A stretch of DNA of 64,000 bases from Naematelia aurantialba (lineage: Eukaryota > Basidiomycota > Tremellomycetes > Tremellales > Naemateliaceae), in the NCBI GenBank assembly GCA_021527695.1, contig JAKFAO010000009.1, positions 1,116,001 through 1,180,000 on the forward strand, written 5' to 3'. The position numbers and the translations under genes were made by a program. Positions 29,874-39,703 of the stretch are shown in pieces. The notes under the pieces are model-generated. The model worked only from the letters and a program-made list of their open reading frames with translations. It was not told the DNA's origin and searched no databases. Position 1 is the first letter of the stretch, and every line of letters starts with the position of its first letter.

Positions 29874-32092
29874 ATGTCGGACACTGAGATAGATTCGGAT
29901 ACCGAGCTGGAGCTTGCTCTCCCCTCAGTGGATGCTGAGAGCTCCTCCGGCGCATTCTCGAAAGCCCACCATGCTTCCGCCCCACTCGAACCGAGCTCTG
30001 GACCTGCTGCTGCGTCAACTGGGCCTCCCAACGAGCTCGCAAGTCGTCCCACCGCGCCCTTACCAGCTCGCCCCCTGTCAACCCTTTACGCTTCTCCAGT
30101 TAGGGATGCCGGGTCGTCGTTCAAGCTACCACCCAACCCTAGTATCCCGCAAGATCTGTCGTTGATCATGGAGATGGTGGCCGCGAACGAGGTGGTGGGC
30201 TCGCTGCCTCCCATCGCCATGACAGCTGCGGAGAAACGACGCCTCGTCGAAGAGAGCATCCGGAAAGGAAAGGGGAAGGGAAAAGCGCCTTTGCCTGCGC
30301 CAGCATCGGATAGCTCCTCAAGCAGTGAAGAAGAGAGTTCAAGCGAAGAGAGTTCAAGCGAGGAGGAGAGTGCGAGTGAAGCGGCTTCGGCGGCGGGGGA
30401 TGATGTGCCCATGACGGACGAAATGCATGCGGAGCTCAAGCGTGGGATAGATCTGCTGGAAGGTCGAGGGCTGGTCTCGGACGGTGAAGGCGACGAATTC
30501 GAATTTGGATCGACCGTCGCAGGGTCGCCTAGGGAGGATATGCTCCGATTGCACGATATGATGGACGACGATGACGACGGCGGTGCCGCCGGACCGATCG
30601 TATCGACCCACGAAGCGCCTTTACCAGCGGTACCCCAACCGCCGATGCTCAAGCTCCCAGAAGGCGAGGGGCTCAGCTTGGCGGGCGACGTCGTCAGTTG
30701 GATGAGAGAGAAGAAGGTCGAGGCGTGGTTGGAGAAACGGGCAGCCATGGCAGCGCTGAGCCGTAATGGTGCAGACGCCGAGTCTCATATGGGGGAGAAC
30801 ATTCTGGGAGTAGGCAAGACCACTACCGATGGTACGGGCGCTACGGAAGGGGCACGAGGGGTCAAACTGGAACCTGGGGGCGTGGAGATCAAGAAGGAAC
30901 AAGATCAGCTTGCGAGCGTCGACGTGAAGGTCGAGAAGGAACAAGGCCAGTTCGAGGGCGAGGGCGTCAAGATCAAGGTGGAACCACCAGATGTTCAAGC
31001 CAACGACGAGCAACATTGTGGCAGAGAGGCACACGTCACCGAGTCGCTGCTGCGGTGTGGACAGGTCAAGTCCAACCAGCCTCAAGCAGGCAACGAGTCT
31101 CTCGCTCTACCGGCTGTCAAATGGCCGACTGCAGACGGCGATAATGCCGTCATGTCGAGCCCTAAGAGAACTCGACAAGATGCTCGAGCGGCAACGTCAG
31201 CGTCCGCGGAACGTGAACGCGAGCCGAAATTTATTTCGGCCGGTACTGTCATTGTGCGGGCGATGCAGAGCCGGCCTGGATCGGGCGACGACGGTTGGCT
31301 GGAGGAAGGCAGCGTTCTCTGCTGGGCGGACGGAAGGGTGCTCGGTACTGTGAGTCCGGGAGTCGTTTACATTCTTCAGTCACAGTGCCCAGTCACCAGT
31401 CACCAGTCACCAGTCACCAGTCACCAGTCACCAGTCACCAGTCACCAGTCACCCAGTCACCAGTCCTCATTTGCCACTGCCCATTCCGGATCATATTGAC
31501 TCTGAACTCTGGAACGTCTATTGTCGCACGACATACCCGCTGAGCATACTTGCTAGGTATCCGAGACATTTGGACCCCTCACATCCCCGTTCTACCAGAT
31601 CCGCCTGCCGCCGCCTCCGCACCCTTACCCCGCCGCAACCGACTTGGCGGCAGGGACCACGCTGTTCTACCCTACCAGCCCGGCCTACCGGTCGTTTGTC
31701 AACATGCACGCTGTGCGGGATTCGCGCTTCAAGGGCTCCGACGCATCGAATATCTTCGACGAGGAGGTCGGCGAGGACGAGCAGGAATGGAGCGACGACG
31801 AGGCCGAGGCCGAGGCCAAGCGCCGCAAAAAGAACAAGCGCGCAGACAGTAGAGCGCGAGGTCGGTCCAGCTGGTCTGAGCGCGGCGGTTCGGTCGGTCC
31901 CGCGGGTTCCGGCACGGGCTCCAACATGACCCCCACCCGCGGCGCATATGGCAACGACAGCACCAGCAACAGCTTCCATGGGAGTATTAATGGGAATGGA
32001 TATAGTCATCCGTCGTTACCTCCCAAGCCGCATTTCGACTATCAGCCAGGAGAGGAATACGCAGGATCCGAGACTGCAAGCCTGTACGGCGG

Positions 32093-32130
<38 letters not shown>

Positions 32131-33221
32131 GCAGGGAGGGCGCCTACGCTTCTTCGGAAGCAGGCTCGACCGCAAGCGCACGGGGCCGGCCCAGACCTGC
32201 GCCATACGATATCGACGGGGACGCAGCTACCGGGCTCAACATCGACGACGGCCTGCTTGCTGGTCTTCGTCTTCCACCAAAACCGGCCTTCAGCGCCGAC
32301 GTGCCTCTGCCTCCTTTGAGTTCGAGTCTCAACTCGGCTCCAGTCCCCCAGCGGGACCCCGACCACGTTTACGGTCAGAGTCATGGTAACGGTCAGAGTC
32401 ATGGACACGGTCACGGACACGTTCACAGTCATAGTCGTGGACACGGTCAGAATCACGGTGACGGTCAGAGTCAAGGCCAGGGCCGACCGCGCGGCACAGG
32501 CCGCGGTGGGAGAGGACGAGGCGGGCGGGGAGGCGGAGGCGGAGGCGGAGGCGGGCGAGATCGGGATCGAGATGCCAAAGGAGGCGGAGCGAGGAGTCGT
32601 CAGCAGCCGCATCAGCAACAGCAGCCGCATCAACAGCAGCAGCCGCATCAACAGCCGCAGCCACAACAACAACATCGCCAGCAGGACAGACGGGCCTCTG
32701 GCGAGCGTCACGAAACCTACTTCCCCAGTCAAGCAGGCTACCAGCCCCCCTCGCCGAGCAACATGGACACCACCTTCCGCCCGGTATTGCAGCAACACTG
32801 GCATCCCCCACCGACGTCTTCATCTCCCCCTCTCTCTCAAGGCAACACCCTGCGGTATCCCTCTCCACGCAATCCGAGTTTCGAGTCCTACCCAACCACT
32901 GCCAAGCAGACTTACCCTCAGCCACCTCAGCCACCTCAGCCACAACCACAGCAAGCGCCATATCAACCTGCCAGCCCTGGTTTCTACCCTAATTATGGAT
33001 CGACCTCCTCGCCATCTCCCCACATATCCCAACAGCAACAGCAACAGCCTCAACATCAATACCACCCCCTTCAGCAGCAGTACATTCCCGCACCCAACAC
33101 CCCTCAGGTGCCAGCTATCAATCCTCGCTTTGCAGCCCAATACCAACACCTCATTAACCCGAACATCGGTGTCTATGGAACGTGGCAGCCAGACGGAAAT
33201 CCCAATCAATATAACGGATAG
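29874..33221 (+). CDS. NAF1: H/ACA snoRNP assembly factor NAF1
   Basis: Exons 29874-31349 and 31557-33221 give 1046 residues, about twice the yeast protein (492). NAF1 binds the pseudouridine synthase Cbf5/dyskerin during assembly of H/ACA snoRNPs and is replaced by Gar1. The Gar1/Naf1 core runs from about residue 450 to 575: GTVIVRAMQSR, EEGSVLCWADGRVLGT, then across the intron VSETFGPLTSPFYQIRLPPP, and FYPTSPAYRSFV. An acidic Ser/Glu stretch precedes it and an acidic segment plus KRRKKNKR follows. The last 400 residues are low-complexity: a His/Gly/Gln run, an RG/GGRGRGG box, many Gln-Pro-His repeats, and a Pro/Gln/Tyr tail. ATG 29874 is chosen over a non-ATG upstream extension. The intron carries a minisatellite. 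Confidence 0.92.
31390..31463. repeat. Intronic minisatellite, 7-bp unit CAGTCAC, about 10 copies
   Basis: Perfect or near-perfect CAGTCAC repeats fill about a third of the single NAF1 intron (31350-31556). Confidence 0.9.
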
Positions 33222-33299: not shown

Positions 33300-36200
33300 T
33301 TAATTCAGAGTACTCCGACTCAGGATCGATCGAATCTCGCGGTGCTTCTGCATCCACGCTGGAAAGTCAGTCCGGTCTAGGTCCACTCCCTCTTCTTTCG
33401 TTTCGAGTAAAAAGTTGGCCAAGACAATCAGTGTACCGTCTAGGAGAGCCCGTTAGCCATCGCTCTCACCCCTTGAGAGATCGCTCACAGCGGTACAGGT
33501 AATTCGTGGCCTGTCGCAGGATTGCATCATACTTCGACGACCCAGGGTCCGCGGCATCGACGCGCAGTTTGAAGCTGAGGTACGTCAGCTTGGTCCCTAA
33601 AAGGATCTCAAAGCTGACTCGTAGACAGCCTTCCGCAAATTCTGGACGCCTTCCATCAGGTTGATCGCCCGGTCCGTAAGCCACTTTGCCTCTTCGCAGA
33701 AATCAGCCACCAGCCACGAGGAAGCCGTCAGGACGCACGTTTACCATGACTGAGCACTGTGACGAGCTGCAAAATTGTCTTATATTCCCCTAGACCGGTA
33801 AGCCATCCGTCATAGCACAGAGCATTCTCACCATTGAGATACTGTGCTGACTCGGCCTCGATTCCTGTATGCTGAGCCTCTTCGTCCTCGATCTCTGCTG
33901 TACGCTCCAGAAGCATATCTTCGCGGGAGATGGTGGCAATGAGTGAAGCTGTGATCATGCCTGTTGTGGTCCGACCGCGGCCCATCTGACAGTTGAAACT
34001 GTGGCGATGTAAGCTGGTGTCTTGGAATATATAGATTTGCAAGAAACTCACACAAAGTCCTCTTTGGCTTTGAGACCATAGGCAACTCTTCCTACAATGA
34101 CCTGAAGCGCAGCGGGCAATGGGGCCTGTTCATCTGTCTGCAATTGTCAGTAAGAGGCATGGACGTCAACGACTCACAATTGCAACACGCGCATAGTCGA
34201 CCTGAAATCCGTCCCGGATCACACCTTCATACAGCTCTCGTGGAGTCATTACCTCGCTCTCGGTGACAGTCTCCCAGATTGGGATGATCTCGAAGATACC
34301 CGGCTTGGTCTCTACCTCGTCGTGCAGCAGCAGGCGACCGTCGCCCGCTCGAATTTCCTTCAACACATCTTCTTTCAAGGTGACCTCCATCCGCTCGACA
34401 ACGGAGGACTTGACTCCAGTTATTCTGTTCCCATCAGATCTGCAGATAATCAGAGCAGAAATGCTTACTCCACATTCGTCAAAGGCTTATCGACTAAGCG
34501 AAGAACGTGGGGACGGCCGGTGACATATAACACAGGCTCCTCTCGTAAGGATGTCCACATGACTCTACGAGGTCCGCCAGGGCCAGCACCCATCTTCTCC
34601 AGAGCATTGCATAGACTGTACCGTCCATCAGCCGGGCCAGCAAGTGCAAGAATAGAGAGTCTCACCCGTCAGCGCTGGGCATGCCGGTACCGTATACATG
34701 TTGGCTGTCGCTTCCGCTGTCTGTGGCTGTCTCGGGCGGTTGTAGACAGTCAAGCGGAACCTTTCGATAATTTGCGGCGCCGTCCACCCGCCTGGACCAA
34801 TGAATAAGCTGGACTTCATTGGATGACGCTAAACTGACTCTGGTAGTGTCTGTTTTTGCAGCCCAGAGAAGAAGTCTGATTTGAGAATCTGCGTGATCGT
34901 TAGCCCCTCCTCCCCTAGCATCGGACTATGGGGCTCACCGTCTGAGCCGATAGGATGGCACCACTACGAGAAGCTACTGCTTGAGAGACTTCATCCGGAA
35001 GCTGATATACGCTTAGCATGTCCAACGAACGCATAAGAGATACTTACAGCCATTCCCTGCGCAGGATCCATACGATCAAGGGGCGTCAATCCTGTCAATC
35101 CTCCATGGACGAGTTCGGACTCCAAAGTCTTGAAAACGGGCCGGTGCCGTACAAACGACTCAAAAGAGTACGGGTTCTGCTCTTCGGGTGAGGTATCATC
35201 GAGATATGCCTGGAAGAGAAGTAGATGGTAGTATCGACGCAAGTGATAAATGCCTATTCAGTGTCAGCAATTGCCTCAAGTTCAACTCACCTTTCTCAAT
35301 GGCACTCTGCTTGTCCTGAGGCGTCTTGGCTTTCTCCGCCTTCTCGCGGAAGTCTTCGATGGCATCACGAAGGTTGAAATGTGTCGCAGCAGCGTCGATG
35401 GCCTCGTCAACGACCTGGAAGATCGTCAGTCATACACATTACTCTAAGGGCCCACCTGTTTAACGTCAAGACCGTTTCGGATAAGGCGTAAACAGCTGTT
35501 GATGATCTGCCAGCTGGTTTTCGGGGTAGATGTCGTTGTCCTTTGCATGCCTGGTCTTGTTCGGGACGGGGTTGGAGGGACTCGCGCTGGTTCACCTCGT
35601 TTAAGCCAGCGCTGAATGAGGAGGACAATCACGGCTGTTGTTGAGCTTCGTCCTCGTCCCAGTTGATCATTCAAAATGAATGCACTCTGCTCCAGGTCGG
35701 TGTGCATGCATAGATTTAACAGCTCAGTGATATCGTGAAACTGTCATCAGCAACTCCTCGTCTCATCCACTCACGTCTGGAGACGATTCAGAAGTCACAG
35801 GTATACGAACAAAGGTCAAATTTAGGTCTTGCAAGTTGTGCTTGACATTGTCCATGACCTCGCGTATAGATGCCACATCTTCCTTGTCTACGCTCTCCCA
35901 CAAAGGAACAACCTCGCCATCGGCAGTTTCGGTATGAAGCAGGACTCGTCCGCTGAATTCTGATACTTCGGCAATGACATCGCTCTTCAGTCGTTCTTCG
36001 AGTACTTCGAGTCTAGAAGCGGAAACGCCAGAATAGTCGCGCATATTTCGCAGAGCAGTGCCATCTCGACGGAGACAGTAGGGTGAGCCTGTTAGCGTGA
36101 GTGCTGAGTTTTCCGCGTCGGTGCGCCTCTTACCGTTGATCATGACAAGGGGTTCCTCACGCAGGCATACCCAGATGACCTGTTTCGCTGCGGGTGTCTT

Positions 36201-39200
36201 TTCTTGGATGACCCTCAAGATGGTCAATATCGCGTCCTGGGTGGGTTGACCAGTAGCGTATATTGGGCTCCCGCCGCGTATTTGCCGAAACCCGACTGCG
36301 CCTCGAACACCCTCGGCTGAAGGCGCAGACTCAGCAAGCCAAAGGTCAGATTTCTCAATTGTCAGCTAATTTGGCTCTTCCAAGCCACTCGACTCACTAA
36401 AAGTGTCGATGCCCGAAGCATGATGCCGCTACGGTTCTTGACCACATGATCTGCCCACTCGTCACCTAAGACCTTGCCTCCTTGTATATCGAGGTCTCCT
36501 TTGCCCTGCCGATGGCGAGCCGTGGGACCTTTGACAAAGTCGGATGTTCGAGATATGACGCTAAGGTCGTTCACAGGTGCGAATGCTGATAAACGGTTGC
36601 CAGCCTGTCGACGGATCAGTTTGATCTGGCTGCAAAATAATCAGCAATAGTCTGCATCATGGGGGAAATGGATTTACTTCCAAATCTCGGGGCGACCCTA
36701 GAAACAAATCAGCAAAGGCTGCGGGAGCACTTGGGCCATAGACTCACTTTCAGCCATGCTGAGAATGTCACGCCAGAATCGCCGGCATCCTCCTCTTCTA
36801 CGTACGCGGCGAAGACGATGAGATCAAAGTATTGCTCAAGCTAAGGGCATAAGCTTCACCCAGTTGTGTAAACTAACAGATCTCAAAGCTTTTTCTAACC
36901 AGCTGCGTCGACCTTTTTCGTCCATTGCGGAAACACTGTACTTGATACGGTGCTCAATGACATTCTCCCTGAGGTTGACAACCACATCCGCTGCATATCT
37001 TCAGTTTGTGTCCTTGGAGCAGAATGTGGGCTTACAGATATCGATCACGTAATCGACCAAACGCTTCATTTGCCTTCCTTGATCCAAACTGGATAAAAGT
37101 GAGAGGACGATTTGATAATTGCCCATATGTGCTTTGCGCAGCTGCTCTAAAAGTTTTGGCTGTGATGCCAAGAGGTCGATGGCTGTCGTGGGGTGCCTGG
37201 AGGGCAGATCTGCAGGGGACTGTAAGCTCAGTCGTCATGCAGCAAGGTCAATCGCTGACTTCGGTCAAGGACTCTGGTGAGCTTGAGTAAACTTGTATTC
37301 AGCGATTGTTGTATAGTCGCCTGCTCCAGGAAATAGGCAGCTTGGGAACCAGTCGCGGGCTACCAAGCATTAGCGTGCCGTGGACAGGTTGTTTGGTGAG
37401 TCACCTCACTGTTACAAAACCTGACGCTCCTGTAGCCGAGGGGAATGGATCATCCAGACCCCGCAGCAGAAATTGCTTCCTCCGAACTAGGAGAGCGGCG
37501 ACCATGCCGAACGTTGCTGATGATGGTCAGCTAGAACTATATTGGTTGGATGTCAGCTCACTGCGAACCACACCCATGCCGCAATTGAAAACTAGCGAAG
37601 TGGTAAGCGGATCCACTCCCCGCAAGACCGATACATATGAATCGAGGTAATTGTCCTGAAACGTGTTCAGCGAGCTAACATTCCTCTGTGGAGGACACGT
37701 ACCTCGATAGGAGTATCCGGAGCAATCGGGATTCTCCAGTACTCGACTCGCCATCCCTCATGCTTCACGTCCTCCCACACCTCGCGTGGTGTGCGGATAC
37801 TGCCTTCATCGACGCTCATCCAAGTCGGCTTAATCTCGCCACTCGATACTTCGTTGTGAATCAATATCATACCACCGTATCTGCGGGCTTCATCCAAAAT
37901 ATCGAGTTTGAGCCGGCGCTCAATGTCTTCCAGATTTGTTGAGCGGCTGGAGAGACCGAGGATCTGAAAGGGGTCTGCCGCATCTCGAAGGACATACGGG
38001 CGTCCATTACTGCTTCCGTCAGCGGACACCAAGCTGCTTGACCGAAACACACCAATAGACTACCGCATGTCAGCTTATGGAAACCATGTGGAGTGCGACA
38101 CAAGGGCGACGAACTGAGGGTCTCTTCTCTCGTACTGAACCAGATCGCTCGTCCCTCATCAACCTCCGAGGACTCGCTCTCGTCAGCTCGATAGCGTGCT
38201 GGCTGAGAAGTAGTGTGCTCTAGCGGAATGGGGTTGCCGTTTGTTGATCCAGCAAGCTGAGAGTCCCAGCGAGACAGCGCAGGTGTTGGTAGGTGCGGTT
38301 GGCATCGGAGGATGGTGAGGATGGACTTTAAGCCCGGCACAGTTGGCTGGGCTACCTGTGGAGGTCAGCCTGTGCGGCGAGATGAGGAATGAGAGGAGAG
38401 ATGCGGAGAATGTTTGTGCAGGGGGTGAGAGGCGGTAATGAGGGAGTAGTCGGCATGGGGAGGAGGGAAAGAGACAAAGAACGAGCACAGAAAGAGAAAG
38501 AGAAAGAGCAAAAGAAAGATGAAGAGAAAGAGAGAGAGAAAGAGAAGAGAGAGAAATAGAAAGAAGGAGCAAGAACAAGAGAAAGAGAAAGAAGAAGAGA
38601 AAGGAGAAGACAGTAGGTGGCGAGGAGAGCTGTGCCATGAAGGACAGCGGCGACCATCGGTAGCTTGACATCAAGAGCATATCCGGAGTGGGACGGCGCT
38701 CCGATGAAAACAGGGCTGCGGAATCGCTTGTCGAAGGCCACACTCACTCCATAGACATTCAGACCCTCTTCGTCCGGAGCGCGAAAGTTGGGTGCGCCCT
38801 GTATAGTCAGGGAGAGATCGAGTGCTCGTCCATCAGGATAATGATCTGTCGTCTATCAGCTTCCTGAGTGTAGTCTCTCGGGCCTCGAGCTAGTGGGTTG
38901 TGACTGACCAGTCTTGAGTATGAAGCTATCAAGACGTGTCAGCGCTTGAGCCAGTGTCACCGTCAAACCACTCCCAGGGAGAGAGAGAGTGAACGTAGAA
39001 AGGTCGGAGACGGAAGATAACAGGAGGGCATGGGAGCAACGGAAAGACAGGGCAGTAAGGGAAAGATGTGGGAGCGATGGAGAGACATGATAGAAATGGA
39101 AGGACACTTCAGAAACGAAGGACACGGCAGCAATGACAGACATGGAGCAAAGAGCCAGGCAACCTACCCTCTGGCAAGCACACCCCCCGTCCGGCGCTTT

Positions 39201-39703
39201 ACCACCCCATCCGCCTCTTGTCTCAGCCGCTCCTGAATCCCAAGTACACGGCTCTTTGGTCTCTCCGCACCGTGGCTGTCCCTCCTATCCCTTTCGCCGA
39301 GGTATCGCGCCGACCCAGCCCTTTCCGTCCCCTTCTGCAACCGACCAGGCAGTATCGGCCGCTCTACCTCGAATGATCCCCGTCCGGGCGTCGGCCCTGC
39401 AGAAAATGCAGCAGTCGTACCGACAAGAGGCGAAGAGCGCGCTGGCAGGTGGGCGCTAGATGACGATGCCGGGGAGCGTGGGGAACGGAACGCGCTCGAG
39501 GTGGTAGGAGGGGACGCAGAAGGAGACGCCGACGGAGCCGACGACGCTGATGAATGGACAGATGGTGCCTGAGAACCAGAAGCGGCAGGAGCAGGAGACT
39601 GTGGAGCAGGAGCTGGAAAAGGGGAAGTAGGAGCAGGAGCTGGGGGAGGAGCGGAGATTGGGCCGTCCGGCGATGGGCTTGAGCTAGGACTGGGCTGTGT
39701 CAT
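33300..39703 (-). CDS. Paladin-like protein with three PTP-like phytase domains (30 exons)
   Basis: Exons, 5' to 3': 39168-39703, 38909-38925, 38748-38845, 38115-38355, 38053-38059, 37703-38009, 37562-37655, 37410-37516, 37273-37359, 37036-37219, 36878-36990, 36748-36840, 36678-36697, 36398-36629, 36134-36353, 35775-36088, 35456-35740, 35291-35414, 35048-35253, 34939-35001, 34839-34888, 34666-34791, 34469-34615, 34178-34439, 34052-34137, 33832-33998, 33745-33789, 33619-33691, 33489-33574, 33300-33439. They join in phase to 1509 residues. After a disordered Ser/Pro/Ala N-terminus (178 residues) come three tandem PTPlike_phytase domains (inositol-hexakisphosphate-phosphatase-like). Their P-loops are CGMGVVR (427-433), DQLGRGR (915-921, catalytic Cys replaced by Asp) and CQMGRGR (1343-1349). 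Each domain also has a REE...RPYVLR-type block. Substrate and function of the fungal members are unknown to me. It is convergent with NAF1 (78 bp). Confidence 0.88.
38053..38059 (-). other. 7-nt microexon of the paladin-like gene
   Basis: The exon TCTATTG is flanked by CTGACATGCGGTAG upstream and GTGTGT downstream. Joining it in phase between A (38115) and T (38009) restores REETLIYCNGRPYVLRD, which aligns without gaps to the REEPVLYVTGRPHVLR and REEPLVMINGSPYCLR blocks of the other two domains. No single intron with GT-AG ends gives an open, aligned frame here. Confidence 0.8.
38460..38600. repeat. Polypurine (GA) tract inside a paladin-gene intron
   Basis: AGAAAGAG-type simple sequence on the plus strand, hence a long pyrimidine tract in the transcript, within the 392-nt third intron (38356-38747). 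Confidence 0.8.

Follow-up and report, generated by a model that had tools for sequence, protein, structure and literature searches.

A predicted 7-nt microexon between two closely spaced introns in a paladin-like gene of Naematelia aurantialba

Very small exons have been described in fungal genes. In Fusarium, CYP621A is reported to contain an exon of a single nucleotide (PMC12940212), and the P450 genes of Phanerochaete chrysosporium are described as having microexons that encode 2-10 amino acids, the shortest exon being 6 bp (PMC1184071). Introns at neighbouring positions have been studied in Drosophila, where the coexistence of both members of a near intron pair was called very unlikely and pairs with genes holding both were excluded (PMC2891723). 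Here we describe a predicted 7-nt exon that lies between two short introns in a 64,000-nt stretch of DNA (the window) from Naematelia aurantialba, an edible jelly fungus. The gene that contains it is paladin-like; animal paladin (PALD1) has been described as acting in endosomal signalling as a phosphoinositide phosphatase (PMC7857541). Among the open-licence PMC papers listed for our queries, we found no earlier report of this microexon, nor of a microexon as the intermediate of apparent intron sliding.

We built the gene model on the minus strand, from 39703 to 33300, using the conserved reading frame and comparison with homologues. The whole coding part and the two other very short exons discussed below are as follows.

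33300..39703, minus strand: coding part of the paladin-like PTP-phytase gene, with 30 exons, 29 GT-AG introns and 1507 residues
38909..38925, minus strand: exon 2, 17 nt, carrying the last base of Gly, FILKT and the first base of Asp
36678..36697, minus strand: exon 13, 20 nt, carrying GRPEIW and two bases of Asn

A shorter version of this model, with 28 introns and 1468 residues, underlies the searches of Pfam and for homologues, as well as the donor profile and the stop outcomes reported below. In that version, Pfam finds three PTPlike_phytase stretches with an E value of 1.1e-134 and a score of 445 bits against a cut-off of 27, which places the protein in the family. The CX5R motif, which we take to be the catalytic signature of the paladin / PTP-like phytase family, reads CGMGVVR in domain 1 and CQMGRGR in domain 3. 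The counterpart in domain 2 is DQLGRGR, with Asp replacing Cys (ILNDQLGRGR, 35677-35648, minus strand), as it also is in Cryptococcus P0030, and the second phosphatase domain is likely a pseudophosphatase. A PDB sequence search with domain 1 gave no match at E 0.001. Among the matches listed, many homologues bear the name inositol hexakisphosphate-domain protein and a few that of Paladin (P0047, P0111), and the closest is a protein of Naematelia encephala, 90% identical across the region searched; compared with our model as it stood without its last exon, this protein is identical at 1208 of 1408 aligned positions.

Introns in this gene are short, 26 of the 29 measuring 34-55 nt and the remaining three 63, 242 and 392 nt. 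The shortest, at 34 nt (35774-35741, minus strand), is supported by the homologous N. encephala protein, and the longest (38747-38356, minus strand) contains a long pyrimidine-rich stretch with CT repeats. The same-strand neighbour at 44290-40325 (minus) is the splicing factor gene SYF1, which is also split by introns; three ORF pieces of it carry HAT repeats. An ORF at 31557-33221 (plus strand) converges on the paladin-like gene; it runs for 554 aa from stop to stop and is of low complexity, rich in Gly, His, Gln and Pro.

The microexon and its surroundings read as follows, the positions of introns 4 and 5 being called site 1 and site 2.

38115..38355, minus strand: exon 4, 241 nt, ending in REETL plus the base A
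38060..38114, minus strand: intron 4 (site 1), 55 nt, phase 1, GTTCGT...CTGACATGCGGTAG, acceptor TAG
38069..38073, minus strand: CTGAC, candidate branch motif of intron 4, 9 nt before the intron end
38053..38059, minus strand: exon 5, the 7-nt microexon TCTATTG, carrying two bases of Ile, Tyr and two bases of Cys
38010..38052, minus strand: intron 5 (site 2), 43 nt, phase 2, GTGTGT...CTGACGGAAGCAG, acceptor CAG
38018..38022, minus strand: CTGAC, candidate branch motif of intron 5, 8 nt before the intron end
37703..38009, minus strand: exon 6, 307 nt, starting T AAT GGA, that is, the last Cys base followed by NGRPYVLR

Direct reading of the DNA reproduced everything that the sequence-only reading had placed in this segment, namely the coordinates, the intron lengths of 55 and 43 nt, the CTGAC motifs, the seven bases TCTATTG and the restored peptide REETLIYCNGRPYVLR. 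That reading had also likened the block to its counterparts in domain 2 (REEPLVMINGSPYCLR) and domain 3 (REEPVLYVTGRPHVLR), and the 16-residue spacing is indeed identical. The frame leaves exon 4 in phase 1 and is taken up by exon 6 in phase 2, and the 7 nt bridge this difference. With its GT-AG introns and their candidate branch motifs, exon 5 falls within the usual description of a microexon: an internal exon that has splice sites of its own and is no longer than about 15-36 nt (size limits from PMC8831610 and PMC11121469).

The splice sites around it are among the weaker ones of the gene. Scored against a donor profile from 26 other introns of the same gene, the donors of introns 4 and 5 reach +3.2 and +3.3 bits. 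In a ranking over all 29 introns, these donors are third and second weakest, respectively. Their acceptors rank fourth and fifth weakest of 29, and by combined site score the two introns are second and third weakest of 29. Because both donors and acceptors are weak, splicing of introns 4 and 5 may be inefficient. A loose CTNAN motif lies 8-12 nt from the intron end in 25 of 28 introns. The pattern AGTNTAYTGGT, which was picked after seeing the site, has a single occurrence on both strands of the 64-kb window, at the microexon. Its mean count in 100 dinucleotide shuffles was 0.12, with at least one occurrence in 12 of the 100, and its chance expectation by our own arithmetic is about 1e-4 per 98 bases of one strand. 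On these pattern counts and the independent contigs described below, we rejected a mere chance repair of the frame.

The three residues that span the microexon are conserved. At its position, [V/I]Y[C/I/L] is found in 114 of 120 homologues (the best 120 of 398), including those of N. encephala, which has IYC, and C. neoformans. Within the AlphaFold model of the intron-free relative P0121 (a partial domain, 57 sequences, mean pLDDT 75.4), these residues map to beta-strand 37-40, and the microexon would supply residues of that strand.

An exon this small had been expected to be mis-joined by automatic annotation, and such errors are seen in relatives. Six of the 25 named Tremellomycete models among the best 120 are garbled exactly at the microexon block (P0005, P0009, P0011, P0015, P0017, P0030), a count that leaves out P0023 (IYCNSRPY). 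Indels no more than 4 residues from the microexon junctions occur in 5 of the 25 models, against a median of 1 of 25 over 29 junctions. By our own back-translation, P0005 (LTDGSNGR) would have retained the 3' end of intron 5, and P0011 and P0017 (LGDNGR) would use a donor shifted by 4 nt. The four garbled Kwoniella models are a weaker case that probably implies both intron sites. Most indels, in 12 of 25 models, fall at junction 8, which lies in a variable linker, and we take these as natural linker variation.

The gene models also vary at other places. The 17-nt exon junction has indels in 6 of 25 models; the models of Tremella mesenterica, Papiliotrema laurentii and C. amylolentus carry extra residues directly after this exon, as if the next intron were retained, and in the Cryptococcus-like P0174 and P0175 both edges of exon 2 are apparently read through, as judged from their ORFs. 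The 20-nt exon 13 has zero indels at either junction in the 25 relatives. In the N. encephala model P0001, 15 additional residues (LVIMQAPSQPADVYR) stand where exons 21 and 22 join (34888-34666, minus strand), probably another annotation error.

Intron states in relatives were obtained by back-translating read-through ORFs of environmental contigs, an approach that shows only which splice sites the codons permit. With 184 residues around the junction as query, we obtained 58 short proteins, most of which we infer to be ORFs of genomic contigs that run into introns. A profile search from the exon 4 side returned 256 proteins, and 110 of the best 120, which we examined, were new. Among the 58 fragments, 24 carry a site 2 acceptor, the leading S of SNGR being AG plus T in our reading. 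Site 2 is absent in another 13, because their site 1 acceptor runs straight into YCNGR. One fragment, P0121, has neither intron, 10 end on the exon 4 side and 10 have no left context.

Among the best 120 homologues, REET at the end of exon 4 is the motif of Tremellomycetes and REEP that of named Agaricomycete and Dacrymycete proteins. REEP-type is a motif label for which taxa were checked by BLAST for P0183 and P0184, and a few named REEP fragments are chytrids (P0261, P0275). Of 21 REET-type fragments with an exon 4 side, 14 show the site 1 donor, 3 have site 1 only, 3 have site 2 only (P0174, P0175, P0178) and 1 is contiguous; P0030 also has site 2 only, by eye. All 17 REET-type fragments that have site 1 (REETL, one base N, then GT; phase 1) read through it with codons that would permit a GTRAG donor. 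The 102 REEP-type fragments comprise 81 with site 1 read-through, 19 that are contiguous and 2 that are neither, and in 16 of the 81 the frame stays open into VYI, with no site 2. All sequences in which we see site 2 are REET-type (Tremellomycete-like) and fall in groups near Naematelia, Papiliotrema, Cryptococcus/Kwoniella and the Trichosporonales, the Cryptococcus-like ones having site 2 only.

A fragment with both sites should spell the microexon between two introns. We therefore asked of each contig tail whether its codons can spell AG/TNTAY(TG, AT or GY)/GT, the slashes marking the splice junctions, after a first intron of at least 33 nt. P0124, P0126, P0171 and P0177 have a site 1 donor followed by this pattern, with implied first introns of 50, 43, 43 and 55 nt. 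They are all four of the REET tails that exceed the length limit, from 14 with a site 1 donor and without a visible VYC; the remaining 10 gave zero matches and are too short for a fair test. REEP tails matched in 1 of 36 cases, 21 of the 36 being at least 27 aa long, and we take that match (P0222, GY form) as chance. For shuffled versions of the four matching tails, the rate of matches is 1.0-4.1%. We introduced the GY form once P0126 had been inspected; leaving it out gives 3 of 4 for REET and 0 of 36 for REEP. P0124 is readable through both introns and the 7 nt in one ORF, and in our reading its codons before the first acceptor are compatible with GCTGAC.

All four states, site 1 only, site 2 only, both and neither, thus appear to exist. 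The state with both sites, which corresponds to the 7-nt exon, would be present in Naematelia, the four environmental contigs and probably Kwoniella. Its conservation in relatives is read from the codons of the four contigs and, more weakly, from the four Kwoniella models. The expectation that other basidiomycetes share the split site would be borne out in this indirect way, by read-through ORFs and not by the genomic DNA of named species.

How the segment is joined can be approached by enumeration. Within 38160-37985 we listed every GT/GC-AG combination whose introns measure 30 nt or more, and an open frame is kept by 22 of 70 one-intron models and 34 of 149 two-intron models. The sequence-only reading had stated that simple GT-AG removal breaks the frame, which is true of the 38115-to-38009 join but too strong as a general claim, because those 22 one-intron joins keep it open. 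A single intron from a donor downstream of 38115 (e.g. 38110) to 38013 or 38010 would replace IYC by SS or SSS; the join of 38110 to 38013 even gives the same protein length (REETLSSSNGRPYVLR), and some relatives' gene models, such as those with LGDNGR, look similarly joined. We nonetheless regard a single intron as extremely improbable: all 22 open models draw on six donors with scores between -1.5 and -8.5 bits, where GTTCGT reaches +3.2, and they lose the residues conserved in nearly all of the homologues, N. encephala among them. A cDNA containing CTCATCTATTGTAATGG would be incompatible with it. A two-intron model from donor 38135 has a similar donor score (3.37 versus 3.19) but deletes STREETL. 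The microexon model, whose donors are weak but acceptable, is the sole enumerated frame-keeping model that gives REETL and [V/I]Y[C/I][N/S]G with zero inserted residues, which supports the interpretation of the seven bases as an exon. Whether that exon would be included always or by regulation is a further question. Inclusion gives the full protein; skipping leads to a stop at residue 345, and retention of intron 4, of intron 5 or of both leads to stops at 319, 311 and 380, all four before the first CX5R motif. Because each of these mis-splices stops early, inclusion is probably constitutive. The same stops, together with the low combined scores of the two introns, could also suit a regulated switch, in which inclusion would depend on conditions and the skipped or retained forms would be degraded or yield a truncated N-terminal protein, and the 20-nt Xlr2 microexon of Trichoderma is reported to be switched by glucose (PMC11121469). 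Against such a switch, which we consider improbable, a length of 7 nt is not divisible by three; the skipped form can therefore be no alternative full-length protein and is not a usable one, as it would be for a switch-like microexon. Moreover, the weak donor of intron 4 is probably not conserved, because the relatives' read-through at site 1 is compatible with GTRAG throughout. The sequence, the phases, the splice-site scores, the homologue block and the stop outcomes can be shown directly, and splicing in vivo is what we deduce from them: very probably, the 7-nt exon is spliced into the mRNA, most likely by intron definition, from two occupied intron positions, and its inclusion is most likely constitutive. 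This would be ordinary intron definition, with introns of 55 and 43 nt that each have their own donor, branch motif and acceptor. Because each short intron carries complete signals, the 7-nt exon itself need not be recognised; it would exist because intron positions 7 nt apart are both occupied.

The order in which these positions were filled we infer from the relatives' states. Site 1 is taken as the older position because REEP-type, Agaricomycete-like genes share it, and site 2 is probably a later gain that split 7 nt from the 5' end of the exon after it. Near intron pairs are defined as positions less than 32 nt apart among orthologues that are mutually exclusive within one gene; the two sites agree in distance but not in exclusion, both introns being in the window. 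The usual picture of intron sliding is what the Cryptococcus-like ORFs with site 2 only and the REEP-type ORFs with site 1 only would present, and one could suppose that a single intron slid by 7 nt and that the co-occupied cases are annotation artefacts. That both introns are physically present in the window, and that P0124 is readable through the pair in a single ORF, makes this very unlikely. Two histories then concern the age of the pair, and the tree, with 63 of 76 rows usable (13 unusable), 97 columns and 20 open forks, cannot decide between them. Tentatively, and with real doubt, we suggest that the microexon was ancestral to Tremellales and Trichosporonales and was later resolved several times by loss of either flanking intron; site 1 would have been lost in Cryptococcus and P0178, site 2 in P0122 and both in P0121. 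Site 2 might instead have been gained repeatedly in different lineages, the microexon then not being ancestral to these two orders. The poor resolution of the tree leaves room for this, as do patchy states within clades, where P0122 without site 2 stands beside P0138, P0141 and P0142 with it and P0121 has neither site. We think repeated gain rather unlikely, since position and phase recur identically at both sites, and loss of one site explains the patchiness, site 1 being common to the outgroup.

If the microexon was ancestral, apparent intron sliding would here be gain plus loss by way of a living microexon intermediate, and the usual assumption that so close an intron pair cannot coexist would be contradicted. 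The locus offers a concrete case of two spliceosomal introns that coexist 7 nt apart, with single-intron and intron-free states apparently kept in relatives, so that both the mutual exclusion of near intron pairs and the gain-plus-loss route to apparent sliding become directly testable. It also marks a spot of frequent errors in public Tremellomycete gene models, enough to affect alignments, and would serve well as a minimal substrate for finding the lower limit of exon size in splicing by intron definition.

Compared with known systems, the microexon appears real, ordinary in kind and better than ordinary in its comparative setting. Like Fusarium CYP621A, it is a tiny exon of a length that is not a multiple of three, lies in a conserved motif, is required for the frame and was found through homologues (PMC12940212). 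Plant microexons of up to 15 nt are likewise described as often mis-annotated, with gene variants that keep or lose the flanking introns, and are called conserved (PMC8831610); conservation of ours is read from codons and would have that limit. It differs from both in that CYP621A is a 1-nt, SRA-confirmed exon of an ascomycete P450 and the plant cases span many genes with RNA-seq support, whereas the Naematelia exon has 7 nt, belongs to a basidiomycete and is predicted from sequence. The 20-nt microexon of Trichoderma virens Xlr2 is also fungal and missing from its gene model, but its inclusion is reported to depend on glucose (PMC11121469), whereas constitutive inclusion is more likely here. 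The P450 microexons of Phanerochaete resemble ours in occurring in a basidiomycete, with small introns and a similar exon size; they belong to another gene family and, in the account given of them, carry no history as near intron pairs (PMC1184071). The Drosophila near intron pairs share the two close positions in orthologues, but not the coexistence of both introns in one gene, 7 nt apart (PMC2891723). The likeness to animal paladin (PMC7857541) is one of name, borne by the fungal relatives P0047 and P0111. Fungal microexons were thus already known, and our reading suggests that what is new here is another, conserved member.
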